From: Chryseobacterium paludis
GTDB lineage: Bacteria; Bacteroidota; Bacteroidia; Flavobacteriales; Weeksellaceae
Assembly: GCF_025403485.1 (NCBI RefSeq)
Contig: NZ_CP099966.1
Span: 434,001-498,000 of the forward strand
DNA length: 64,000 nt
Direction: 5' to 3'
The position numbers and the translations under genes are program-made. The notes under the pieces are model-generated. The model worked only from the letters and a program-made list of their open reading frames with translations, had not been told where the DNA came from and ran no database searches. This document shows positions 42,997-63,686 of this stretch, piece after piece; the stretch's first letter is position 1, and each line of letters starts with the position of its first letter.

Positions 42997-44304
42997 ATGT
43001 ATGAAGAAATGAAAAAAGAAAACAACATAAATGATACGGTAGAAAAAGTAAAAGATACTTTACTGGTATTAAACAATACGATCAATACCATCAGACTTGT
43101 TCAGGGTGTTGATAAAGAAGGCAATCTCAAAGAAGTTTTACCTGAAAATACAAGCTCCCAACAAATGATCCGTATTGATGCCGATGAAGGCTCATTCACC
43201 AGTTTCTTTACGGATTTTTACAGTCAGCTTAAAAGCCCTTCTGATTTCTCATTTTTCAAAGTAACGGAATATGAGGCTACCCAGACAGCTACAGAACTAC
43301 AGGAGTATGTTAAGAATGCTTCTGTAGAGGAAAGAAGGAATCTAAAACAGTATGAAGTTTCTATAGAAAGGGTAGAGGCTCATAAAACCCAATCTCCAAT
43401 AAATAATACATCAACTAAAGAAGATGCCTTATACCGTTATGAGGCAGAGCAGATTGATTGGAGCACGATGGAAAAGCTGGGCCTTAACAGGGAGATGCTT
43501 GAAAAGATGAATGCGTTAGATCCATTATTAAGAGGGTTTAAAACGCCTATACTTGTTCCTGTTACCATTAATCTGGGAACAGCGGTCAGTACAATGGAGG
43601 TAAGGCTTTCCCTTCAGGTGCAGGATTCAGGAGAAGTAGGAGTGCTCCTGCATGGAGTGCGTAAAGAGCCTGATCTTAATTCGAAGTTCTTTGGGCATGA
43701 GTTTACCCGGGAAGATAAGAGAAACCTTATTGAATCCGGAAATATGGGTAGGGTGGTTAATCTTATCAATCCCAAGACTGATGAAGTGATTCCCTCTGTG
43801 ATCAGCAGGGATCGGCTGACCAATGAACTGATTGCCTTAAGGGCTGAATTTATGAGGGTTCCACTGGTCATTAAAGGAGTGACATTGAATCTGGAGCAAA
43901 GGCGGACTCTTCTGGAAGGAAAACCTTTGTTTATTGAAAATATGCTTTCCAAAAGAGGAACATTATTTAATGCTACGCTTCAGTTTAATGCTGATAAAAG
44001 GTATGTGGAGTTTCAGTTTAAGAAAAATATTAAGAGCCTTTCGATGAAGGATTTGAATAGTAGAGAAAGAGCGGAGGTTCCGAGTGTATTCAGAGGGCGG
44101 AAGTTATATTCATGGCAGATGGATAAATTAAAGGCAGGAGAGACGGCGTATATCAATAGTCTTACGGATGGGAAAGGGAAGAAATACCAAGGGTATATGA
44201 CGTTTAATAGGGAGGTGGGAAAGATTGAGTTTTCGTTTCGGAATCCGAGGAAGCAGTTGGGTAATACAGAGAACAAAACTATATCAAAGGGTAAAAGGAT
44301 TTGA
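42997..44304 (+). CDS. DUF4099/DUF3945 protein of integrative conjugative elements
   Basis: 435 residues; the better start may be MKKENNINDT, four codons in. The middle (YRYEAEQIDWSTMEKLGLNR, ALDPLLRGFKTPILVPVTIN) is DUF4099-like. The C-terminal half has two related blocks (LRAEFMRVPLVIKGVTLNLE / RREL-type GKPLFIENMLSKRGTLFNAT, then AEVPSVFRGRKLYSWQMDKL / YINSLTDGKGKKYQGYMTFN), the DUF3945 repeat. Such proteins are encoded on conjugative transposons of Bacteroidota beside a topoisomerase and helicase, with unknown molecular role. Its codon use is visibly richer in G and C than the Rhs array to the left. Confidence 0.82.
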   Translation: MYEEMKKENNINDTVEKVKDTLLVLNNTINTIRLVQGVDKEGNLKEVLPENTSSQQMIRIDADEGSFTSFFTDFYSQLKSPSDFSFFKVTEYEATQTATELQEYVKNASVEERRNLKQYEVSIERVEAHKTQSPINNTSTKEDALYRYEAEQIDWSTMEKLGLNREMLEKMNALDPLLRGFKTPILVPVTINLGTAVSTMEVRLSLQVQDSGEVGVLLHGVRKEPDLNSKFFGHEFTREDKRNLIESGNMGRVVNLINPKTDEVIPSVISRDRLTNELIALRAEFMRVPLVIKGVTLNLEQRRTLLEGKPLFIENMLSKRGTLFNATLQFNADKRYVEFQFKKNIKSLSMKDLNSRERAEVPSVFRGRKLYSWQMDKLKAGETAYINSLTDGKGKKYQGYMTFNREVGKIEFSFRNPRKQLGNTENKTISKGKRI

Positions 44305-51938: not shown

Positions 51939-53750
51939 TTAGGTTATGTTTAGAAATGAATAATCATAATCATATTCTAATAGATGTGGGGTGGGACTTT
52001 TTCCGTCTGGATTATAATAGTTTATTCCTCTTGATGTTTCTGAAATCAGATGTAAATTTTTTCTCGCTCTTGAAGCTAAAACATAGAGTAGTTTTTTTGA
52101 ATTTTCATACCCATTTGTGTCATTAAAATGAGGAACATAATCATCAAGCAAGGCGAAACCAATTACAGTATCATATTCTTCCCCTTTCACGCCGTGAATA
52201 GTTGAAACCGTTATGCCGTCTTTTTGCCTAAATACTTTTCGAAAATTTTCAATCTCTCCAATAAAAGGATTTCCTTCATCAATAAGCCTTTGTATACGAC
52301 TTTCAGAACTCGCAAAAAATGAAGTATGGTGTTCTTCTAGTAATGGAAAATTATTAATGTTTATTTTTAATCTTTCACAAATTTGGTCAAAGAAAAACCG
52401 TAGATATGTTAAACCATCATTCTCATCTATCTCAATAGAATTACAAATTTTTAAAAATTCTTTATTTGAGAATTTTGTTATGTCAATCCCTGCAACATCA
52501 AGCTCATTTAATACTTCTTTACTCCACCTGAGCCTTCGAACATACATAAAAGGAGAAGGTTCTGTTAGAACTATTCTTGCAATTTTGAACCAAAAATTTT
52601 CAATATCACGAGAAAAGGGTGCCATTCCAGGACCATCGAAACTATAATCAGGAAGGCTAACCATCAACTTTCTGGTAATGCTTGCAATATGTACCCATTG
52701 TGGTGCCACAATACAAATTTCATTAGGACTTATGCCTGCTTCTTGTACATTAAATAAGATTAGTTTCGCAATTTCTTCTATTAAGTTATCTAAAGAAACT
52801 GAAAAATTATAAGTGATTAAACTCCTATAATCTTTATTATTTCCAAAAGCTATAATTGGCGTTGCAAAGGTTTTATAATGGTCAAAATAATTAATTACGA
52901 CTTCCGATGACCTGTAATTTTTGTCTAAGATCAATTTCTTTAATTCAAATCCCAACAATTTTTCTAATTCATTTTTAGGCATTGGATAACCACCTAACGA
53001 ATTATAAATTGACTGATTTGGGTCGCCAACAATTAGAGTTTTAGAGCAACCCTTATTGGCATTTAATATCTTTGTGATGATGTGATATTGTATTTCTTTA
53101 GTATCTTGATATTCATCAATTAATATAAATGGAAATAATTTACAAAGAATAGAACTGATTACAGGTTTTGTCTTTAACAAATCATAAGCATAAAAAAGAA
53201 TTTGCTCAAAATCGAGCTGATTGTTTTTTTCTAAAATTGAAAAATACTCCTTAAGTATAGCTTTAATATGATTGTTTTGATTGCTGGTTTTTGAAGTGAA
53301 TTCATACGTTCCATTGATGGTAGCATAATACTGAAAGTCATAAAAAGTAACCTTTGGATTACTATATTTTTTACATATCTCCGTTAAAAGCTTTTCGCTA
53401 TCAAATGAATTACAGACCTTAAAACCATTTTTTAATCTATCAGAATACAAATGATAAGGCTTTAATATCCATTCCATACAAAATGAGTGGATGGTACCAA
53501 TCCATAATTGAGTGGTATCTACGCCTAATAATTCAATACGGTCTTTAATCTCATCCGCAGCGTTGTTGGTATAAGTTATTGCAATGACAAACTCTCTGTC
53601 TGTTTTTAATCTGCTAAGTTCATAAGCAATTTTAAAAGTTAAGGTACGAGTTTTGCCACTACCCGGACAGGCTATGAGAAGCACACTTTTATCTTCTAAA
53701 ATTGCATTTTCCTGTTCATCATTGATGCTACCTTTTTCCCAAACAAACAT
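51939..53750 (-). CDS. gajB-like: UvrD/PcrA-like helicase, GajB-like
   Basis: 603 residues. SF1A motifs in order: ACPGSGKTRTL (27-37), AITYTNNAADEIKDRI, LIDEYQDTKE, VGDPNQSIYNSLGG, LDKNYRSSEV, VSTIHGVKGEEYDTVIGF, LLYVLASRARKNLHL. Such helicases are encoded next to class 2 OLD nucleases, as in the Gabija anti-phage system (GajA/GajB). It starts 2 bases after the OLD gene stops, so the two are translated together. It is somewhat longer than the roughly 500-residue GajB of Bacillus, so it is Gabija-like rather than a proven Gabija. Confidence 0.85.
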   Translation of the reverse strand: MFVWEKGSINDEQENAILEDKSVLLIACPGSGKTRTLTFKIAYELSRLKTDREFVIAITYTNNAADEIKDRIELLGVDTTQLWIGTIHSFCMEWILKPYHLYSDRLKNGFKVCNSFDSEKLLTEICKKYSNPKVTFYDFQYYATINGTYEFTSKTSNQNNHIKAILKEYFSILEKNNQLDFEQILFYAYDLLKTKPVISSILCKLFPFILIDEYQDTKEIQYHIITKILNANKGCSKTLIVGDPNQSIYNSLGGYPMPKNELEKLLGFELKKLILDKNYRSSEVVINYFDHYKTFATPIIAFGNNKDYRSLITYNFSVSLDNLIEEIAKLILFNVQEAGISPNEICIVAPQWVHIASITRKLMVSLPDYSFDGPGMAPFSRDIENFWFKIARIVLTEPSPFMYVRRLRWSKEVLNELDVAGIDITKFSNKEFLKICNSIEIDENDGLTYLRFFFDQICERLKININNFPLLEEHHTSFFASSESRIQRLIDEGNPFIGEIENFRKVFRQKDGITVSTIHGVKGEEYDTVIGFALLDDYVPHFNDTNGYENSKKLLYVLASRARKNLHLISETSRGINYYNPDGKSPTPHLLEYDYDYSFLNIT

Positions 53751-53752
53751 AA

Positions 53753-55894
53753 TTATTTCAATTTTTCAATGATGGTTAATATTTGATCATTGGGAATTAC
53801 TAAATCCAAGTCGATTATTAAATCTTCTAAAGGTATTTCTGCATTACGATATTTTAATAATTGTGCACGGCAAGTGGTAAAATCCAAGACATTATTATTC
53901 TCAAAATTTTTGGTTATCCTAAACTCAATAATGTCTGCAATGATGTGCGATGAATAGCTGTCTTTAGCAAAAAAGATTGCATCCAAAATATACTCAGGAA
54001 TGATGGTTTTAAAGAATATATGTTTGCCAAGCATTATTGCAAACCAACCTTTGCCTTCTTGCTTTGCCATTGTAAGCACTCGTTTACCAGATACAGCTAC
54101 ATCTGCATTTTCCAAATCCAATTTTGCTTGGTCGCGAGTAGCTTTATCTACATAAACTTGTTTTATTATTCTTTGAACTTCCCAGTCATTTCCTTCAATA
54201 ACAAAATCAACTTCAAAAGTATGCTTTGCATAAAATGTCTTAACCCATATATTACCTGTTTCAAACAAATCAAGTTTTGCCTTCCTTTCCAAGCCTTTTT
54301 TCTGCGATCCGGCAACTTTCTTTTTAAATTTTATGATGTCATCCGTATCGCCTGCAACTACTGTTGTATTGCAAATAGCATCATCTAAATCAGTAAGTAT
54401 TGCGCATTTTCTCTTAATTCTATCACTATGGAAAAGTTGAGCTACATTTTCAAAACCGGTGCTTCGAATATTTATCAGGCTTATTCCTAATTCATCAAGT
54501 CCCACACCAAGAACTTTTTTTACCATTATTGGTATTAAAATTTCCTCGGCATCACCTTCAACTAAAATTACCCCCTTTGCAAAAAGTAGGTTAGTTCTAA
54601 CCGCATCTAGATAGCGTTGTATTTGGTTAATATTTTCTGGTAATAAACCTGTTGAAGGTTGATAGACTTCAGCGTAATTGAGTTTCTTGGCAAGAATATT
54701 TATGTTCTCAACGTTACTGACTTCTGAAATTTGTGTTGAATGTGTCGAATAAATAATTTGCGTGTCGCCATAATTTAACTTGTCAAAAAGTGTCTTTTGA
54801 ATGTGATTATGAATATGGGCTTCTGGCTCCTCTATAATCAGGAAATTTGCAAAAGTATCTTTAGATTTTCTATATTTAAATTCTAAAAGTTTTAGGGTAA
54901 GAAATATAAGATTTGCACCTCCTAAACTTAATTCGTGTATTCCCCCTTCGTAATCTTCTCCAGGTTCGCCGATAAAAAGTTTTAACGACTGCAGAAGCTT
55001 TTCTGCTTCATCTGGTACACTAGATTTAATGGAAAGAGACGATGGTGAGTAAGTCAATCCAACCGCGTCTTGTATAGTAGATTTAATATCTCCTCTGATG
55101 TTTTGTACATCAGGAAGTGCTTCAATATTTTCATTTAAATCGTTAACTAAATCACTTATTGGCTTATAATCAACTTCTTTAATTTCTCCACTTTTATTTT
55201 TTAATAGTGTAAGTAAAGGGTTAGTTCTATTGTTATGAAAATCACTTACAACATCTCGCAAAGCTTGAATAAATGTAAAGGAAATTTCTTTGGCAACAGA
55301 TAATTGATGTGGAATTCTTGAGCCAAATTTAGAAGTATCAATCGATACAGGAAAAATTACATTTTCGAAATCACCAACAAGCTCTTTATAAACCTCAGGA
55401 TCATTGAAATTGGCCATACTTTTTCCTGTGAAGAAAGTTTCATAATTATCTTGGATGGTAATGTCATCTAGTATTGCTTGCAAACTTTCTTGATCTCCTT
55501 CTTTCAGTTCAGATAATTTTTGTCTAATATCTGCTTTTGGTCGAAAAAATAAATTGTAAGTAGCTTTTTTTACATAATCTTCTTCCGCAATTCCGGCACC
55601 GTGAATAAAAAGAGATTGTATAGCCTCTTCATTATTAAGTTCATCAAATTCAATGCTAATGATTATCCAATGGCCTTTCCATTTATTTTTATCCAATTGC
55701 CTATTGAAATCTCCTTCTCCTAATTTATAAGCAAATTGCATTGAAGCATCTTCTAGAAGAAGCCGAATAGCTCTGAATACATTTGTTTTTCCAGAACCAT
55801 TTTCTCCAATAACTGTGTTTATACCTTTCTGAAAGTAAAAACTTGCATTTGAAAAATTTCTATAATTGATGAGTGAAACTTTAGATATGTGCAT
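53753..55894 (-). CDS. gajA-like: class 2 OLD-family ATPase/TOPRIM nuclease, GajA-like
   Basis: 713 residues. N-terminal ABC-type ATPase: Walker A GENGSGKTN (30-38), signature-like ELSLGGANLIFL, Walker B FLIIEEPEAHIH, and H-loop QIIYSTHSTQISE. After it comes the TOPRIM domain: GVILVEGDAEEILIP (catalytic Glu) and CAILTDLDDA (Asp-x-Asp). This is the OLD nuclease layout, and the adjacent UvrD-like gene makes it class 2. Gabija GajA nicks DNA when nucleotide levels fall during infection; the same is expected but not shown here. It is longer than Bacillus GajA (about 578), with about 180 additional residues at the C-terminus (ILDAIFFAKDSYSSHIIADI). Confidence 0.87.
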   Translation of the reverse strand: MHISKVSLINYRNFSNASFYFQKGINTVIGENGSGKTNVFRAIRLLLEDASMQFAYKLGEGDFNRQLDKNKWKGHWIIISIEFDELNNEEAIQSLFIHGAGIAEEDYVKKATYNLFFRPKADIRQKLSELKEGDQESLQAILDDITIQDNYETFFTGKSMANFNDPEVYKELVGDFENVIFPVSIDTSKFGSRIPHQLSVAKEISFTFIQALRDVVSDFHNNRTNPLLTLLKNKSGEIKEVDYKPISDLVNDLNENIEALPDVQNIRGDIKSTIQDAVGLTYSPSSLSIKSSVPDEAEKLLQSLKLFIGEPGEDYEGGIHELSLGGANLIFLTLKLLEFKYRKSKDTFANFLIIEEPEAHIHNHIQKTLFDKLNYGDTQIIYSTHSTQISEVSNVENINILAKKLNYAEVYQPSTGLLPENINQIQRYLDAVRTNLLFAKGVILVEGDAEEILIPIMVKKVLGVGLDELGISLINIRSTGFENVAQLFHSDRIKRKCAILTDLDDAICNTTVVAGDTDDIIKFKKKVAGSQKKGLERKAKLDLFETGNIWVKTFYAKHTFEVDFVIEGNDWEVQRIIKQVYVDKATRDQAKLDLENADVAVSGKRVLTMAKQEGKGWFAIMLGKHIFFKTIIPEYILDAIFFAKDSYSSHIIADIIEFRITKNFENNNVLDFTTCRAQLLKYRNAEIPLEDLIIDLDLVIPNDQILTIIEKLK

Positions 55895-58192: not shown

Positions 58193-58339
58193 ATGAAAGC
58201 ATTAAAAATCTACAGTATTATTTCAACTATTGCAATTATTGTATTTTCAGTTTCAGTTTACAATACAAATAAAGATGTTAGCAAAATAAAAAAAGAATTA
58301 AAAGAAACAGAAGAAGTTCTTGATCAATGTTCTGATTGA
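58193..58339 (+). CDS. 48-aa membrane-anchored mini-protein
   Basis: A small frame, MKALKIYSIISTIAIIVFSV then SVYNTNKDVSKIKKELKETE and EVLDQCSD: one N-terminal membrane span, then a charged coiled-coil-like helix ending in a Cys. It has typical protein composition and an ATG start, and a palindromic terminator follows 26 bases after the stop. The function is unknown. It is convergent with the XRE gene. Confidence 0.5.
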   Translation: MKALKIYSIISTIAIIVFSVSVYNTNKDVSKIKKELKETEEVLDQCSD

Positions 58340-58365
58340 TACTATCAGGAAGTTAATAAGTAAAA

Positions 58366-58389
58366 AAAATCCTAACTAGTTAGGATTTT
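58366..58389. terminator. bidirectional terminator
   Basis: AAAATCCTAACT-AGTTAGGATTTT is a perfect 24-base palindrome flanked by A and T runs. It serves the mini-protein gene on the plus strand and the XRE gene on the minus strand, whose stop codon lies inside it. Confidence 0.75.
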
Positions 58390-58637
58390 ATCTTTTTATA
58401 CTTGCAAAAAAAATCTTCCAAAGTCATTTTCTTCTTTTGACAGATTTTAATTAAAGTTTTTAGGGACATATTGTAATCAGTCTTTGATGTTCCTAATGCA
58501 ATATTTTTAATTCTTCTCACTGTACTTTCTTCTACACCGCATTTTGATGCAAAATCTCGCTGTGATTCCGCAGTTGAAATCCAGTTTTGGTAAATGTATT
58601 TACAAATAGCAATAATAACGTCTTTCTCATCGTCCAT
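58380..58637 (-). CDS. small HTH (XRE-type) regulator
   Basis: 85 residues with a helix-turn-helix: AESQRDFASKCGVEESTVRR and IKNIALGTSKTDYNMSLKTL, ending in KKKMTLEDFFCKYKKIKS. The spacing fits the Cro/C1 domain with a long last loop. It is the first gene of the leftward defence-type cargo and the most likely regulator of it, reading away from the SusC leader. Confidence 0.72.
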   Translation of the reverse strand: MDDEKDVIIAICKYIYQNWISTAESQRDFASKCGVEESTVRRIKNIALGTSKTDYNMSLKTLIKICQKKKMTLEDFFCKYKKIKS

Positions 58638-58707
58638 TACAACAAATTAAAAGAAAGAGCAAAAAAATAGTGCGGTTTTCTGTGCGCAATAGTGAAATAT
58701 TGTTATA

Positions 58708-58740
58708 TTTGTAAAATAGGTTACAATTAATGTAACTTTG
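58708..58740 (+). promoter_or_regulatory. strong Bacteroidota-type promoter
   Basis: TTTG at 58708-58711 and TAACTTTG at 58733-58740 match the -33 TTTG and -7 TAnnTTTG boxes with a 21-base spacer, the usual spacing for this phylum. Transcription would start near 58747, directly ahead of the structured RNA. It is the best promoter in the window. Confidence 0.75.
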
Positions 58741-58769
58741 CGATACTTCAAAGAATAATAGAAGCTATT

Positions 58770-58953
58770 GCTTAGAATCTCGCTTAGAAAACTGGTAATT
58801 TACGGAACGAGAGGATAAGTACTAAGCTCACGACCTAGGCGTGGGCTCTCTTATCTGTTCCAAGGTATACCAGTACCCCTAAGCTGATAACGTAGAGTCC
58901 CACGCCGTCTTTTTCCAATGCTGTTCGCTTTATCTCTACGTTACAATCTAAGC
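58770..58953 (+). ncRNA. structured RNA element, candidate new class
   Basis: The sequence pairs with itself in a nested three-way junction. P1: GCTTAGA (58770-58776) with TCTAAGC (58947-58953). Arm A: GCTTAG (58782) with CTAAGC (58879); inside it ACTGGTA with TACCAGT, GGAAC with GTTCC, GATAAG with CTTATC, and GCTCACG with CGTGGGC. Arm B: AACGTAGAG with CTCTACGTT. GGCGTGGG in arm A is also the exact complement of CCCACGCC in arm B, so an alternative fold or tertiary contact is possible. It has no long ORF and a higher GC content than the flanks. It is not tmRNA, RNase P, SRP or a tRNA by motif. Confidence 0.65.
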
Positions 58954-58987
58954 CCGCTTCCTAAAATAGTATCAGATTTACACGATA

Positions 58988-59010
58988 CAATAGGATTGTA
59001 CAACCTATTG
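58988..59010 (+). promoter_or_regulatory. hairpin after the structured RNA
   Basis: CAATAGG and CCTATTG pair, with TTG-TA-CAA continuing the stem inside (10 bp with one bulge). No T-tract follows, so it is unlikely to be a terminator. CAATAG can also pair with CTATTG just upstream of P1, giving an alternative closing stem. Confidence 0.5.
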
Positions 59011-59080
59011 CGGCTTTACAGCTTTCACGGGAACACAAATTTCATTCATATTCATTCATTCATTTTTTGATGGGTGCTTT

Positions 59081-59128
59081 GGGCAGGAGGTTTTGCTATG
59101 TCCTTAATAAAACTTCCTCCCAAGCCTC
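59081..59128 (+). promoter_or_regulatory. leader hairpin sequestering a ribosome-binding site
   Basis: GGGCAGGAGGTTTT (59081-59094) pairs with AAAACTTCCTCCC (59109-59121) with one bulge and one G-T pair. The left arm contains the ribosome-binding site AGGAGG of the tiny ORF at 59098; the right arm lies inside that ORF. A second copy of GAGGAGG near 59231-59237, ahead of susC, could compete for the same right arm. This resembles translational attenuation leaders. A (TTCA)n tract lies just before it (59041-59066). Confidence 0.5.
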
Positions 59129-59133
59129 ATTAA
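59098..59133 (+). CDS. possible leader peptide MSLIKLPPKPH
   Basis: An 11-residue ORF with a perfect AGGAGG seven bases ahead of its ATG, unusual in a phylum that rarely uses strong Shine-Dalgarno sites. It is rich in Pro and Lys (LPPKPH), and consecutive Pro codons slow ribosomes. It sits within the hairpin just described. It could couple ribosome progress to expression of susC downstream, or be chance. Confidence 0.4.
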   Translation: MSLIKLPPKPH

Positions 59134-59274
59134 ATAAATACATAACAACTAAAAACATTATCTAAGAAACAGAAAGTAACCAGTAACCATAGAAAAAAGA
59201 AAAGCCCTTTCCACAAAAGTTGACTGCTTGAGGAGGAAAGAGCAAAGTTTAACGAATTAAACCTTTTCAAAAGT

Positions 59275-62200
59275 ATGAAAAAAAACTTTTGCAGCCTAAG
59301 CTATCTTCAAATGGCTTTTGGCTTCACATTGCTCGTCTCGGGTATTGCAATAGGGCAGGAGCGGAGTATTTCCGGTACTGTCACGGGGAATGACCGGCCT
59401 TTAAGTGATGTTTCCGTGTTTCAGGAAGGGAGCGATAAGGTCACTATGACCAACAAAAGCGGATTTTATCAGATAACAGTTTCAGGGAAAGACCCCGTCC
59501 TTATCTTCCGGTATCCGGATTATCCACAGCAAAGAATAGCGGTGGTTGATGACAAGCCCCTCGTTAATGTTTCCTTTAGTGAAAAGATTAAAGGGATTGA
59601 AGAAGTCGTGCTCAATGCAGGCTATTACAGGGTAAAAGAGAAAGAGAGTACGGGAAGTATAGCCAAGGTTTCGGCTAAGGATATAGAGAATCAGCCTGTC
59701 ACTAATGTGCTTTCTGCGGTACAGGGAAGAGTGACAGGGGTAAACATTACCCAGAATTCAGGGGTTGCGGGTGGAGGCTATGATATACAGATCCGTGGGA
59801 GGAACAGCCTTCGTAACCTGACCAACAGTGTAGTGGATGGTAACCAGCCTTTGTATGTGATTGATGGCGTACCGATGGGAGGCCAGCTTAATTCAGCTTT
59901 CTCGGTAAGCATTATGCCCCTCCGAAATATAAGCCCTCTGAATGCCATCAGCCCGAATGATATTGAGAGCATTGAAATTTTAAAGGATGCTGATGCAACG
60001 GCTATTTACGGTTCAAGAGGAGCCAATGGGGTAGTGTTGGTTACAACCAAGAAAGGCAAAAGAGGTAAATTGGGAGTATTACTCAGTACCACCTATAGCA
60101 TAAGCAGCGTGGGGAGTCATATGGATATGATGAACACCGAGCAGTATCTATCGATGCGAAGGCAGGCTTATGCTAATGATGGAATTACCGCATTGCCTGC
60201 TACCGCTTATGATGTCAATGGGGTATGGGATGTGGGCAGGTATACCGACTGGCAGCAGGAACTGATAGGGAAAAGGGCTACAGGAAGCATGACGCAGGCC
60301 AGTGTAAGCGGTGGGACGGATACCAATACTTTTTTAGTGAGCTTTTCCCATAATGACCAGTCTACGGTATTTCCGGGGGACTATCATTACAAGACTAATA
60401 TTTTAAATTCATCATTCAGCCACTCTTCCTTAGATAAGAAGTTCAGGATTGAAGTGTCCAATATGTTTTCATCGCTTTCCAATAATGTGGTCAATACCGA
60501 TCTTACTTCCAAAGCTTTAACCTTGAGTCCCAATGCTCCTATATTGTATGATTCAAATGGCGGCCTGAATTGGGAGAACAATACCTTTACCAACCCATTA
60601 GCCTCTTTAGTCAGTACCTATTCGAATAAGGTACTGCAATGGAACACTAATGTCAATACATTGTATAAGTTCTGGAAGGATTTTGTTTTTAAGACAAACG
60701 GTGGGATCAACTACCAGAACTTAGAGGAAGTTTCCCTGATGCCCAGTACGATGTACAATCCGGCCTATGGGATTACTCCGGAGAGTTCTTCTGCCTCGAA
60801 GAGCAGCAACACAGTATTCTCTTACATCATAGAGCCCCAGCTCTCATGGGCAAAGAGACTGGGTGACCATAAAATGGATATCCTTGTCGGGACTTCTTTT
60901 CAGCAGAGCACCAGCAGGCAGTCTTCCATGACGGGCGTAGGCTTTGCCAGTAATGCACTGATTAATAATATCGGTGCGGCCACTACAAAAATTATTTCGA
61001 ATCAGATTACAAATCCCTATAAATATGCAGCCTTATATGCGCGGGTCAACTATCAATATAAAAACCGGTATATAATTAATATAACCGGCAGGCGTGATGC
61101 GTCCAGCAGGTTTGGACCCTACAACAGAGTTGCGGACTTTGGGGCTGCGGGCGGGGCATGGCTCTTTACCAAAGAAGTCCTGTTTGATAAAATCAAGTGG
61201 CTGAGCTCTGGTAAGCTAAGGGCAAGCTATGGGATTACGGGAAGTGATTTTATAGGGGACTACCAGTTCCTTAATACCTACACCATCGGTACTGTGAATT
61301 ACAATGGGGTTACAGGATTGTATCCATCGAGGCTTTATAACCCTGCTTACAGCTGGGAGAAGACCAAAAAGCTGGAAGCGGCTCTGGAGCTGGGGTTTTT
61401 AAAAGACAGGATCACGCTGACCACTGCTTTTTACAGGAACCGCTCTTCAGATCAGTTGGTAGGGATTCCATTGCCTTCCATAACAGGCTTTTCCAGTGTT
61501 CTGGCTAATCTGGATGCTACTGTGGAGAACAGGGGCTGGGAAATGTCGCTTAATGTCAATGTTCTTAAATCCAGTGCATTGAAATGGGATTCCGGGATCA
61601 ACCTGAGCATTCCTAAAAACAAGCTGATCTCATTTCCGGGGCTGGAAGGCTCTACCTATGCCAATACGTATAAAGTAGGCTATCCTACATCGATCGTAAG
61701 GGTATTCCAGTATGAGGGTATTGATCCGGTTACCGGACAGTATACCTTTAAGGATTTTAACGGGGATGGAAAGATTTCTTCCCCTGATGATGCGCAGGCC
61801 ATAGAAAAAATAGGGGTTAAATATTATGGAGGCTGGCAGAACCAGGTTTCCTATAAAAATATCAGCCTTTCATTTCTTTTCTATTTCGTGAAGCAGAGAA
61901 ACTGGAACTATATCCGCACCATGGCGGTTCCGGGTACAATGAACAATATGCCTGAAGAATTTGTAAACGTATGGTCCCAGAATAACCCGGGCGGAATGAT
62001 CATGCCGTATTCAGCAGGCTCGAATGCGGTGGTCAACAGTCTAACCAATAACCTGAAGAACAGTACGGCTGCCATAGGGGATGCTTCATTTATCCGCCTG
62101 AAGAATGTACAGCTTAACTACCGTATAGAAAGCAAAGATAAATTCTTTAAAGATATAACGCTTTATGTGCAGGGACAGAACCTGTGGACCTGGACGAAGT

Positions 62201-62286
62201 ATTTCGGGCTTGACCCGGAGTTCAGCGTATCGGGTTACCTGCCGCCGCTTAAAACCTTTGCTTTTGGAATGCAGTTGAACTTTTAA
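59275..62286 (+). CDS. susC-like: SusC/RagA-type TonB-dependent outer-membrane transporter
   Basis: 1003 residues, the usual SusC length. Signal peptide (LQMAFGFTLLVSGIAIGQ), a carboxypeptidase-regulatory-like domain (RSISGTVTGNDRPLSDVSVF), the SusC plug with IQIRGRNSL and DATAIYGSRGANGVVLVTTK, then the beta-barrel ending in KTFAFGMQLNF. It imports a substrate across the outer membrane together with the SusD lipoprotein encoded 2 bases downstream. Substrate unknown; no glycoside hydrolase is seen. The gene is clearly richer in GC than the region to its left, consistent with it being part of an integrated element. The 530-base leader is described separately. Confidence 0.92.
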   Translation: MKKNFCSLSYLQMAFGFTLLVSGIAIGQERSISGTVTGNDRPLSDVSVFQEGSDKVTMTNKSGFYQITVSGKDPVLIFRYPDYPQQRIAVVDDKPLVNVSFSEKIKGIEEVVLNAGYYRVKEKESTGSIAKVSAKDIENQPVTNVLSAVQGRVTGVNITQNSGVAGGGYDIQIRGRNSLRNLTNSVVDGNQPLYVIDGVPMGGQLNSAFSVSIMPLRNISPLNAISPNDIESIEILKDADATAIYGSRGANGVVLVTTKKGKRGKLGVLLSTTYSISSVGSHMDMMNTEQYLSMRRQAYANDGITALPATAYDVNGVWDVGRYTDWQQELIGKRATGSMTQASVSGGTDTNTFLVSFSHNDQSTVFPGDYHYKTNILNSSFSHSSLDKKFRIEVSNMFSSLSNNVVNTDLTSKALTLSPNAPILYDSNGGLNWENNTFTNPLASLVSTYSNKVLQWNTNVNTLYKFWKDFVFKTNGGINYQNLEEVSLMPSTMYNPAYGITPESSSASKSSNTVFSYIIEPQLSWAKRLGDHKMDILVGTSFQQSTSRQSSMTGVGFASNALINNIGAATTKIISNQITNPYKYAALYARVNYQYKNRYIINITGRRDASSRFGPYNRVADFGAAGGAWLFTKEVLFDKIKWLSSGKLRASYGITGSDFIGDYQFLNTYTIGTVNYNGVTGLYPSRLYNPAYSWEKTKKLEAALELGFLKDRITLTTAFYRNRSSDQLVGIPLPSITGFSSVLANLDATVENRGWEMSLNVNVLKSSALKWDSGINLSIPKNKLISFPGLEGSTYANTYKVGYPTSIVRVFQYEGIDPVTGQYTFKDFNGDGKISSPDDAQAIEKIGVKYYGGWQNQVSYKNISLSFLFYFVKQRNWNYIRTMAVPGTMNNMPEEFVNVWSQNNPGGMIMPYSAGSNAVVNSLTNNLKNSTAAIGDASFIRLKNVQLNYRIESKDKFFKDITLYVQGQNLWTWTKYFGLDPEFSVSGYLPPLKTFAFGMQLNF

Positions 62287-62288
62287 AT

Positions 62289-63686
62289 ATGACTATCATG
62301 AGAAACTATAAAAAAAATATATACCACATCACAGGTCTGCTGTTGATCATGCTGCTGCTCCTGCTTGGATGTGAAAAGATGGTAGAGATTGATGATCCGA
62401 CCGATCAGATCAGTACGCCATCTGTTTTTGAAGACACCCATACGGCTGATGCGGCTCTGGCAAACCTGATGGCTGAGATCAGGGATAATTCCATGTTTTC
62501 AGGGGGAAGCAGGGGAATGTCTGCTTTACTGTCAAGCTACACCGATGATTTGGATGGGTACTTTATCAATAACAACAATGCTGCTATGGATATTTATCAT
62601 AACCAGCAGCTGGCTGGGAATACAAGCATTGAATCGTTGTGGCGCAATGCCTATAAGGAGATCTATATCGCCAATTCGATTATGGAAGGAGTGGAAGGTT
62701 CTACCTCAATACCGGTAAAGGACCGGCAACGGATTGCTGGAGAGGCTATGCTTTTACGCTCCCTTATCTATTTTAATCTGTATCGGATATTCGGAGACAT
62801 TCCTTATACCGTAACAACAGATTTCAGCATCAACAGGAATTTAAAGAGAATACCGGAAAACGAGCTTTTAGCGCATCTTGAAAATGACCTTCAAAAATCC
62901 TCCGGGATGTTAAGCGATGAGTATTCGGTAGCAGAGAGATTATACCCTAGCCGGAAAGTGGCTCAACTGGTATTGGCTGAACTGTACTTAACAGAGCATA
63001 AATGGCAGCAGGCAGAACTAATGGTAAAAGAAGTAATCGGTAGCCCTTTGTATGTTTTTGAAACGGATATCACCAAAGTATTTTTAAAATCGGGTAAACA
63101 TATCCTCTGGCAGCTAAAGCCCCAGAATACAGGTGATGCTACCGCTGAGGCATTATTGTACTACTTTAATAATGCTGCGCCGCCTTCATATGCTATGTCT
63201 AATAATCTGGTATCTGCTTTTTCGGCTTCTGATCTCAGGAAGCAGAACTGGATGGTGCCTGTTACTTTTAACCAGCAGACGTGGTACAGCCCCTATAAGT
63301 ACAAAAGCCTCTCACCGAATACCACAGAGCACTCGATTGTATTCAGGCTGGAACAGGCGTATTGTATTTTGGCAGAAGCCTTAGCGGAGCAGGGAAGGGT
63401 AGGAGAAGCAGTACCCTATATCAATGCTATAAGGCAGAGGGCAGGCTTAACAGCTCTGGGGCAGAATATTCCGAAAGACGCCTTTCTAAATGAACTGTTA
63501 CAGGAAAAGCGCCGTGAGTTTTTTACAGAATCGGGGCAGCGGTTTTTTGATCTGAAGCGATTTAACCGATTGCAGGACCTTGCTGTGATTAAACCCAACT
63601 GGAAGTCCTACCATAAGGTGTGGCCAATCCCTTTAAGTGAACTATTACTGAATCCTAATTTAAACCCACAAAATGAAGGTTATTAA
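62289..63686 (+). CDS. susD-like: SusD/RagB-type surface lipoprotein
   Basis: 465 residues. The lipobox LLLLLGC follows a hydrophobic leader; the more likely start is MRNYKKNIYH, three codons in. SusD features: TADAALANLMAEI, LWRNAYKEIYIANSIMEGVE, AGEAMLLRSLIYFNLYRIFG, LYPSRKVAQLVLAELYLTEH and the C-terminal LLQEKRREFFTESGQRFFDL followed by KRFNRL. It captures the substrate for the SusC-like barrel at the cell surface. It overlaps the next gene by 14 bases. Confidence 0.92.
   Translation: MTIMRNYKKNIYHITGLLLIMLLLLLGCEKMVEIDDPTDQISTPSVFEDTHTADAALANLMAEIRDNSMFSGGSRGMSALLSSYTDDLDGYFINNNNAAMDIYHNQQLAGNTSIESLWRNAYKEIYIANSIMEGVEGSTSIPVKDRQRIAGEAMLLRSLIYFNLYRIFGDIPYTVTTDFSINRNLKRIPENELLAHLENDLQKSSGMLSDEYSVAERLYPSRKVAQLVLAELYLTEHKWQQAELMVKEVIGSPLYVFETDITKVFLKSGKHILWQLKPQNTGDATAEALLYYFNNAAPPSYAMSNNLVSAFSASDLRKQNWMVPVTFNQQTWYSPYKYKSLSPNTTEHSIVFRLEQAYCILAEALAEQGRVGEAVPYINAIRQRAGLTALGQNIPKDAFLNELLQEKRREFFTESGQRFFDLKRFNRLQDLAVIKPNWKSYHKVWPIPLSELLLNPNLNPQNEGY

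Follow-up and report, generated by a model that had tools for sequence, protein, structure and literature searches.

We analysed a 64,000-nucleotide (nt) stretch of the Chryseobacterium paludis genome, hereafter referred to as the window, in which a region of nested complementary segments lies between a defence-gene cargo and a SusC/SusD operon, the placement reported in a preliminary description of this DNA. The features of the locus, in window coordinates, are as follows.

51939–55894, − strand: Gabija pair forming the defence cargo of the window, a GajA-like AAA_15/OLD-TOPRIM ATPase and a GajB UvrD helicase (PADLOC GajB, E = 5.7e-255)
58380–58637, − strand: divergent helix-turn-helix (HTH) gene of 85 amino acids (Pfam HTH_36, E = 1.1e-5), the likely repressor of the leader promoter
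58708–58711, + strand: −33 box TTTG, read directly, 21 bases from the −7 box
58720–58736, no strand assigned: palindrome GTTACA-N5-TGTAAC spanning the −7 box, a putative operator
58733–58740, + strand: −7 box TAACTTTG, read directly
58761–58959, + strand: leader RNA core (model R1, 210.5 bits), with covariation
58770–58776 and 58947–58953, + strand: closing helix P1, GCTTAGA/TCTAAGC, its 3′ strand past the T-run
58782–58787 and 58879–58884, + strand: stem GCTTAG/CTAAGC, read directly
58791–58797 and 58868–58874, + strand: stem ACTGGTA/TACCAGT, read directly
58804–58808 and 58857–58861, + strand: stem GGAAC/GTTCC, read directly
58814–58819 and 58850–58855, + strand: stem GATAAG/CTTATC, read directly
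58826–58832 and 58840–58846, + strand: stem GCTCACG/CGTGGGC, read directly
58889–58897 and 58934–58942, + strand: hairpin B, AACGTAGAG/CTCTACGTT, enclosing the T-run
58988–59010, + strand: conserved downstream hairpin CAATAGG/CCTATTG, seen by eye in the alignment
59275–62286, + strand: SusC-type TonB-dependent receptor, the first gene after the leader (Pfam Plug, E = 6.4e-22; CarbopepD_reg_2)
62289–63686, + strand: SusD-type lipoprotein (Pfam SusD_RagB, E = 1.1e-21)

The downstream hairpin occurs as CAATGAG/CTCATTG and in other variants in Chryseobacterium copies, as judged by eye in the alignment. Two more inverted repeats lie between the leader and susC, at 59066–59117 (GGCAGGAGG and CCTCCC at its ends) and at 59204–59244 (GCCCTTTCC and GGAAAGAGC), the latter present in other SusC-type copies too. 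At the far end of the defence cargo, 42997–44304 (+ strand) encodes a DUF4099/DUF3945/Toprim_Crpt protein, a kind known from Bacteroidota conjugative elements.

All the stems and the promoter listed in the preliminary description are present in the sequence, the promoter exactly (TTTG, 21 bases, TAACTTTG) and of the Bacteroidota type. The RNA from 58747 to 58960 folds at −64.2 kcal/mol (z = −4.05), better than all 200 shuffled sequences, and the opposite strand of the region folds equally well (z = −4.25); the strand was therefore chosen by promoter, gene order and T-run and not by folding energy. Since energy says little when both strands fold well, comparison among copies was needed as evidence. 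RNAalifold on a plain, unfitted MAFFT alignment predicted 49 pairs and compensatory changes at 12 of these. Among 72 distinct sequences fitted to the model, 95.7% of cells are paired. Double changes occur at 37 of the 49 pairs (mean of 18.0 after shuffling) and in 351 cells (86.9 after shuffling), and the covariation score reaches 0.342, compared with 0.132 for shuffled alignments; the signal is lost when the strands are slid. Helix 1 (P1) has double changes at five of six pairs with 92.9% of cells paired, helices 6–8 (strands a and a′) are paired in 98.1, 87.3 and 99.2% of cells, and helix 9 (hairpin B) has double changes at all eight pairs with 90.2% paired. Because this alignment was fitted to the structure, pairing was checked on the raw strings as well, where all 72 sequences form at least 5 bp of the variable helix P3b (shuffles: mean 26.4, maximum 36). 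The covariation among copies shows the leader to be a real structured RNA under structural selection.

The RNA had been described as an unclassified three-way junction, and it remains without a match in Rfam while its stems covary. No Rfam 15 family matched anywhere in the window at gathering scores; at E ≤ 10, the interval 58200–59300 gave eight sub-threshold hits, none within 58700–59020 and one beginning at 59020. Flavo-1 did not match at the leader, and a tRNA/tmRNA search with ARAGORN reported none on the leader RNA. No account of the leader RNA was found in the literature searched, including the available text of PMC9723704 and PMC13418256.

By blastn, the leader is present in 53 of 99 related genomes (51 of 60 Chryseobacterium and 2 of 39 outside the genus), at up to six separate places per genome (G003). 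A covariance model trained on 40 copies from the Chryseobacterium group detected it in 46 of 395 Bacteroidota genomes, spanning 21 of 170 genera, and a pattern scan of named genomes returned at least 119 stretches, 80 of them listed. The genera among the matches listed include Chryseobacterium, Flavobacterium, Maribacter, Muricauda, Salegentibacter, Mucilaginibacter, Chryseolinea and a Siphonobacter metagenome-assembled genome, with others. The genome of the window carries the window copy and a weak second copy (59.6 bits, G000:C1:3297828). No leader match was found by blastn in plasmid and phage collections or, with one exact pattern, in viral contigs. The earlier proposal of a regulatory RNA belonging to one mobile element does not hold, as the leader RNA is phylum-wide and precedes several kinds of operon. 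The leader RNA is the founder of a new, phylum-wide family absent from Rfam.

To define the genomic context, we laid out the surroundings of 20 Chryseobacterium loci, 20 distant loci and the 80 named-genome leaders listed, excluding from the gene-order tally two 23-bit matches (the plus strand of L198, and L199). Among the matches listed, an assigned gene follows on the same strand in 59 of 80 by a tally of rows, which places the leader 5′ of an operon in the manner of attenuators and riboswitches. The first gene belongs to SusC/SusD in 35 (in some cases with a TlpA-like or ~100-amino-acid gene in between), to a 180-amino-acid Chryseobacterium protein family in 9 (two tandem leaders in L157 sharing one gene), to sigmaE in 7, to response regulators in 7 and to an ECF gene in 1; the remaining 21 rows have no assigned gene, 7 of them because of the slice end, and L179 has opposite-strand open reading frames (ORFs) only. 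In a check of 26 of the 35 SusC leaders, another TAnnTTTG box precedes susC in only 2, so the leader promoter is the sole visible housekeeping promoter in the other 24. TAnnTTTG is the flavobacterial −7 consensus given in PMC9723704. Gene content alone suggests no ligand for a riboswitch reading.

The two L157 leaders lie ~660 nt apart on one strand, both followed by the one 180-aa-family gene. This protein (174–200 amino acids; L047:10220–10744 (+) and relatives) directly follows the leader in 11 of 20 loci; it has no sequence relative in the PDB and no Pfam match reaching the cut-off, its predicted fold (17 sequences) has a mean pLDDT of 53.5, too low for a structure search, and among 120 listed of its 361 homologues the species-named ones are Chryseobacterium. 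The ~100-amino-acid proteins in L087 and L089 resemble it by eye. A response-regulator leader subfamily comprises L151, L154, L166, L140, L143, L182, L092 and L127, several copies having two co-directional genes (~103 and 97–115 amino acids) upstream instead of a divergent HTH gene. A DUF6520 small protein (L031:16191–16457 (−)) and a MauE-like membrane protein (L034:17222–18703 (−)) are convergent, behind a SusC/SusD/S9-peptidase operon.

Upstream of the leader, a −7-like box is found in 116 of 132 leaders, with TTTG 15–23 nt further upstream in 67 of these 116, and in the window transcription of the leader probably starts near 58747. A palindrome with perfect 5-bp arms accompanies the box in 64 of the 116 (shuffled mean 17.9, maximum 30), with arms of the types GTAAC, GTAGC, GTAAT, ATATA and others. 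In 73 of 114 leaders, a divergent ORF of at least 65 amino acids begins no more than 170 nt upstream of the core; where inspected it is usually an HTH gene, its family differing between close copies. Further upstream the cargo is variable and defence-rich: among the 125 proteins scanned (of 133 collected), five to six match each of the AAA-ATPase models of Gabija, Septu and AriA, which overlap, six match reverse transcriptase (RVT_1) and three match N6 methylase. The leader as the partner of a reverse transcriptase was rejected, as RVT_1 occurs in only those 6 of 125 upstream proteins. Even close copies differ in their upstream DNA as far as the edge of the promoter, the HTH family included, and this, with the richness of the cargo in defence genes, is what might be expected if the conserved block were a DNA recombination or attachment site at a variable cargo edge and its RNA-like appearance a by-product; but stems of quite different sequence (P2, P3b) are still paired, which a DNA site does not need, and the covariation contradicts this explanation, which we consider extremely improbable.

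The leader contains a second set of pairings. The preliminary description had pointed to a complementarity between two arms as a possible switch, and this complementarity is present and does have the look of a switch. Beyond that description, we found the palindrome at 58720–58736, a T-run behind CCCACGCC and an alternative 5′ hairpin, H1. The segments involved are the following.

58763–58782, + strand: 5′ strand of H1 (AGCT, GCTTA, TCTCG), with its partner at 58808–58828 in the OFF fold
58814–58832, + strand: strand a, GATAAG...AGCTCACG, which pairs with a′ in hairpin A
58838–58855, + strand: strand a′, GGCGTGGGCTCTCTTATC, the switching strand, its first 11 bases identical to the dCas12f guide
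58838–58845 and 58899–58906, + strand: alternative pairing of GGCGTGGG with CCCACGCC
58886–58906, + strand: strand b, GATAACGTAGAGTCCCACGCC, the other partner of a′
58907–58914, + strand: terminator-like T-run, GTCTTTTT, immediately 3′ of strand b

The a′/b helix (helix T) and hairpin A share nucleotides, and the two folds are therefore mutually exclusive. Counted on an alignment fitted to the opposing fold, helix T is paired in 94.1% of cells and shows double changes at 9 of 15 pairs (shuffled mean 3.6). The final two bases of a CTCN element (columns 168–169) pair in helix T only, and among 72 sequences the element and its partner read CTCT/AGAG in 36, CTCA/TGAG in 13, CTCC/GGAG in 1, CTAT/TTAG in 1, CTCT/TGAG with one mismatch in 6 and other combinations in 15. 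Because a regular expression recovered strand b in no more than 68 of 112 leaders, we turned to a best-partner search, in which strand a′ was located in 114 of 117 leaders examined, 113 of them with at least six of seven pairs. As this search selects the best window, the pairing count is not independent proof, but the T count is: at least six T occur within the 10 bases past strand b in 95 of 113 leaders, as against 12.9% of control windows, a count that omits L139, L144 and L146, which run off the end of their slices. Some leaders (for example L089, L097 and L125) have a weak T-run or none, and in many Chryseobacterium copies the T-run is interrupted (for example GTTTTTATTTT).

Folding of transcripts ending at the T-run revealed H1, a 5′ hairpin that captures strand a. 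We counted H1 in 138 of 142 distinct leaders, the other 4 having no recognisable strand a; the 23-bit matches excluded above were left out here too. Its outer helix of at least 4 bp forms in 129 of 138 (shuffled maximum 85) and its inner part, TCTCG/CGAGA, in 130 of 138 (shuffled maximum 106); pairing of its middle part is not above shuffles in the same 138. The key position of H1 is T-A in 61 of 117 leaders, A-T in 37, G-C in 2, wobble in 10 and unpaired in 7, with exchanges also within families (L018, L083).

Thermodynamic folding up to the T-run preferred hairpin A in 11 of 12 leaders, the leader of the window preferring the T fold, and placed the two folds within 2 kcal/mol of each other in L084 and L093; the T values of L042 and L082 in this set are void, the wrong strand having been taken. 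As hairpin A is mostly the minimum-energy fold, the energies do not settle the direction of the switch. In a simple terminator scan the hit was hairpin A with CTCTTATCTG behind it; helix T, whose loop is larger than the scan allows, was not listed. Hairpin B encloses the T-run and thus forms only in read-through RNA. The leader accordingly has two mutually exclusive folds, one of them a helix followed by a T-run, and from its pairing and arrangement it looks like a bistable transcription attenuator.

These data bear on two other accounts of the RNA. The folding might serve the read-through RNA only, through protein binding or mRNA stability, with the a′/b rearrangement occurring without termination. 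The greater stability of hairpin A in 11 of the 12 leaders and the interrupted Chryseobacterium T-runs are compatible with this, but it accounts neither for the enrichment of T behind strand b nor for the covariation of both helix T and the a′-freeing H1, and we regard it as unlikely. Alternatively, a free, trans-acting small RNA of ~165 nt could end at the T-run and act on other RNAs or proteins, the operon being expressed by other means. The leader indeed has its own promoter and T-run, and some leaders, such as L179, have no assigned same-strand gene. However, the 3′ strands of P1 and hairpin B covary beyond the T-run, so that a longer RNA has been selected too; few gene families stand behind the 59 leaders with an assigned gene, all on the same strand; and the SusC-first leaders mostly have no second TAnnTTTG box. 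The alternative pairing followed by a T-run is better fitted by an attenuator-type leader, and a free small RNA is, in our judgement, quite unlikely.

A pair of genes for sigmaE and nuclease-dead Cas12f (dCas12f) directly follows the leader in L081 and L084, and the L081 proteins match 'Nuclease-deactivated Cas12f' (9n9c_A, E = 3.3e-156) and 'RpoE' (9n9q_C, E = 2e-82). Among the 99 relatives, dCas12f occurs in 15, all of them leader carriers. A leader lies upstream in 10 of the 18 dCas12f slices searched, and none was found in the other 8; in the phylum sample, full-length dCas12f is present in 7 of 395 genomes, 5 of which have the leader. In Chryseobacterium, 36 of the 51 genomes with a leader gave no dCas12f match at the sensitivity of the search, and the leader is therefore not dependent on dCas12f.

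In all 12 aligned loci, a conserved Cas12f-type scaffold RNA lies 3′ of dCas12f. The scaffold ends with TATACAAC (TATACAGC in L110), after which come GGCGTGGG, a C/T-rich segment and a T-run, and the guide is thus the start of strand a′, in the sense of the leader. The guide of L084, from another family, is longer (GCGTGGGCTCTCTTATT) and is again a′, and in L187 (Chryseolinea lacunae) and L117 the guide GGCTC(A/G)CTTAT.. represents the next register of a′. Among 23 dCas12f loci (L186 being probably the same genome as L103, and L118 a remnant), 15 have the first-register a′ guide and 2 the second register, whereas 4 have other guides (L115, L116, L159 with two guides, and L201) and 2 have no readable guide (L114, L122). 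In L159 (Galbibacter), tandem guide-RNA copies 3′ of dCas12f carry different guides, neither matching its own leader. In L118, the remnant locus in the window's own genome (G000:C1, about 4786060–4786420, − strand), ~80 amino acids of dCas12f are matched, with one stop, and the guide-RNA gene retains an intact guide, GGCGTGGGCTC, on an altered scaffold.

The guides match the leader on its sense strand above chance: none of 400 shuffled guides reached the match score for L084, L186, L187 or the guide of the window's genome, and 7 of 400 did for L117; the L081 guide (59 of 400) matches the leader of L081 no better than shuffled guides do. The scaffold plus guide pattern occurs in 16 of 99 relatives, comprising the 15 dCas12f genomes and one three-mismatch match. 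Exact matches to the 11-mer GGCGTGGGCTC number 34 in the 12 dCas12f genomes searched (of 15), namely 25 leaders, 6 guide genes and 3 others, and the reversed 11-mer has none; the genome of the window has two sites, the window leader and the guide gene beside the decayed dCas12f. Targets of dCas12f–sigmaE are reported to have a 5′-G adjacent motif; here the base 5′ of the target is G if the guide starts with GCGTGGG (L084) and other bases if it starts with GGCG or CGGCG. Because the guide equals a′ and the 11-mer sites are nearly all leaders or guide genes, the leader is very probably a natural target of RNA-guided transcription, and the unrelated guides indicate that dCas12f systems can have targets other than the leader.

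Two other relationships between leader and guide were weighed. That the leader RNA is itself the dCas12f guide RNA was rejected: it stands directly before sigmaE–dCas12f in 10 of the 18 slices, but it holds no scaffold, the scaffold sitting elsewhere with the guide at its 3′ end, and most leader-bearing Chryseobacterium genomes have no detected dCas12f, so we give this reading almost no weight. An interaction at the RNA level is also conceivable, in which the 3′ end of the guide RNA mimics a′, binds strand b of the leader and blocks the terminator in trans, with dCas12f optional. The guide is identical to a′ and complementary to b, and in the window's genome its gene persists beside a decayed dCas12f; yet the guide forms the 3′ end of a Cas12f-type scaffold whose neighbours are two proteins matching the solved DNA-binding dCas12f–RpoE complex, and scaffolds of other lineages carry unrelated guides. 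We therefore judge it very unlikely.

On this basis we propose a working model. The divergent HTH protein would act at the palindrome spanning the −7 box to repress the promoter. In the ON state, hairpin A, with P2, P3, P3b and P4, would allow read-through into the operon, and in the OFF state H1 would capture strand a and free a′ to form helix T, which with the T-run would terminate transcription; a signal would choose between the two. dCas12f–sigmaE reportedly recruits RNA polymerase and starts transcription at a fixed distance downstream of its R-loop. Bound to leader DNA at a′, it would start transcription downstream, and a transcript starting past a′ lacks a′, so that no helix T terminator is possible. 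Such RNA-guided starts would switch on leader-bearing operons, often sigmaE–dCas12f itself, past the attenuator. In the strain of the window, where dCas12f is a remnant, the leader part alone likely works. That the leader is a cis-acting transcription attenuator of the SusC/SusD operon, with a′ also the site for dCas12f–sigmaE starts that bypass the terminator, is the reading we hold to be probable. The fuller picture, in which a′ serves two machines, as the terminator/read-through choice in RNA and as the DNA protospacer of an RNA-guided activator yielding terminator-proof transcripts, and in which the scattered leaders form one regulon of chiefly SusC/SusD operons and the activator, we put forward tentatively, at slightly less than an even chance.

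An orphan leader RNA of ~200 nt with two covarying folds and a phylum-wide span is a rare find, and it precedes outer-membrane uptake operons, whose control is often unknown. For natural RNA-guided transcription it would provide a concrete set of targets across whole genomes and a circuit that can be tested, and it raises the question of the signal to which the leader responds in the many genomes that have no dCas12f.

Transcription attenuators and riboswitches with an intrinsic-terminator platform are 5′ leaders with two exclusive folds. The leader shares with them its 5′ position, exclusive folds, a terminator-like helix with a T-run and a conserved, sensor-like domain, but differs in having no Rfam family, a closing helix that reaches past the T-run, a switching strand that is also a guide target, and a phylum-wide occurrence before SusC/SusD and sigmaE–dCas12f. 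Structured 5′ elements of Flavobacterium psychrophilum likewise have no Rfam hits and are conserved in Flavobacteriaceae, but those in section 19 of PMC9723704 precede pheA, hisG, ftsY, acsA, alaS and rimP, unlike the leader. The TnpB-derived, nuclease-dead TldR repressors, which exert RNA-guided control of transcription, share nuclease-dead RNA guidance with the present pair, but TldR represses, whereas the pair here includes a sigma factor, and the available part of PMC13418256 mentions no leader RNA. In the dCas12f–sigmaE system (PDB 9n9c, 9n9m, 9n9o and 9n9q), the chains match the proteins behind the leaders and a guide RNA likewise lies 3′ of dCas12f, whereas the present work describes its target, the gene of a structured leader RNA.
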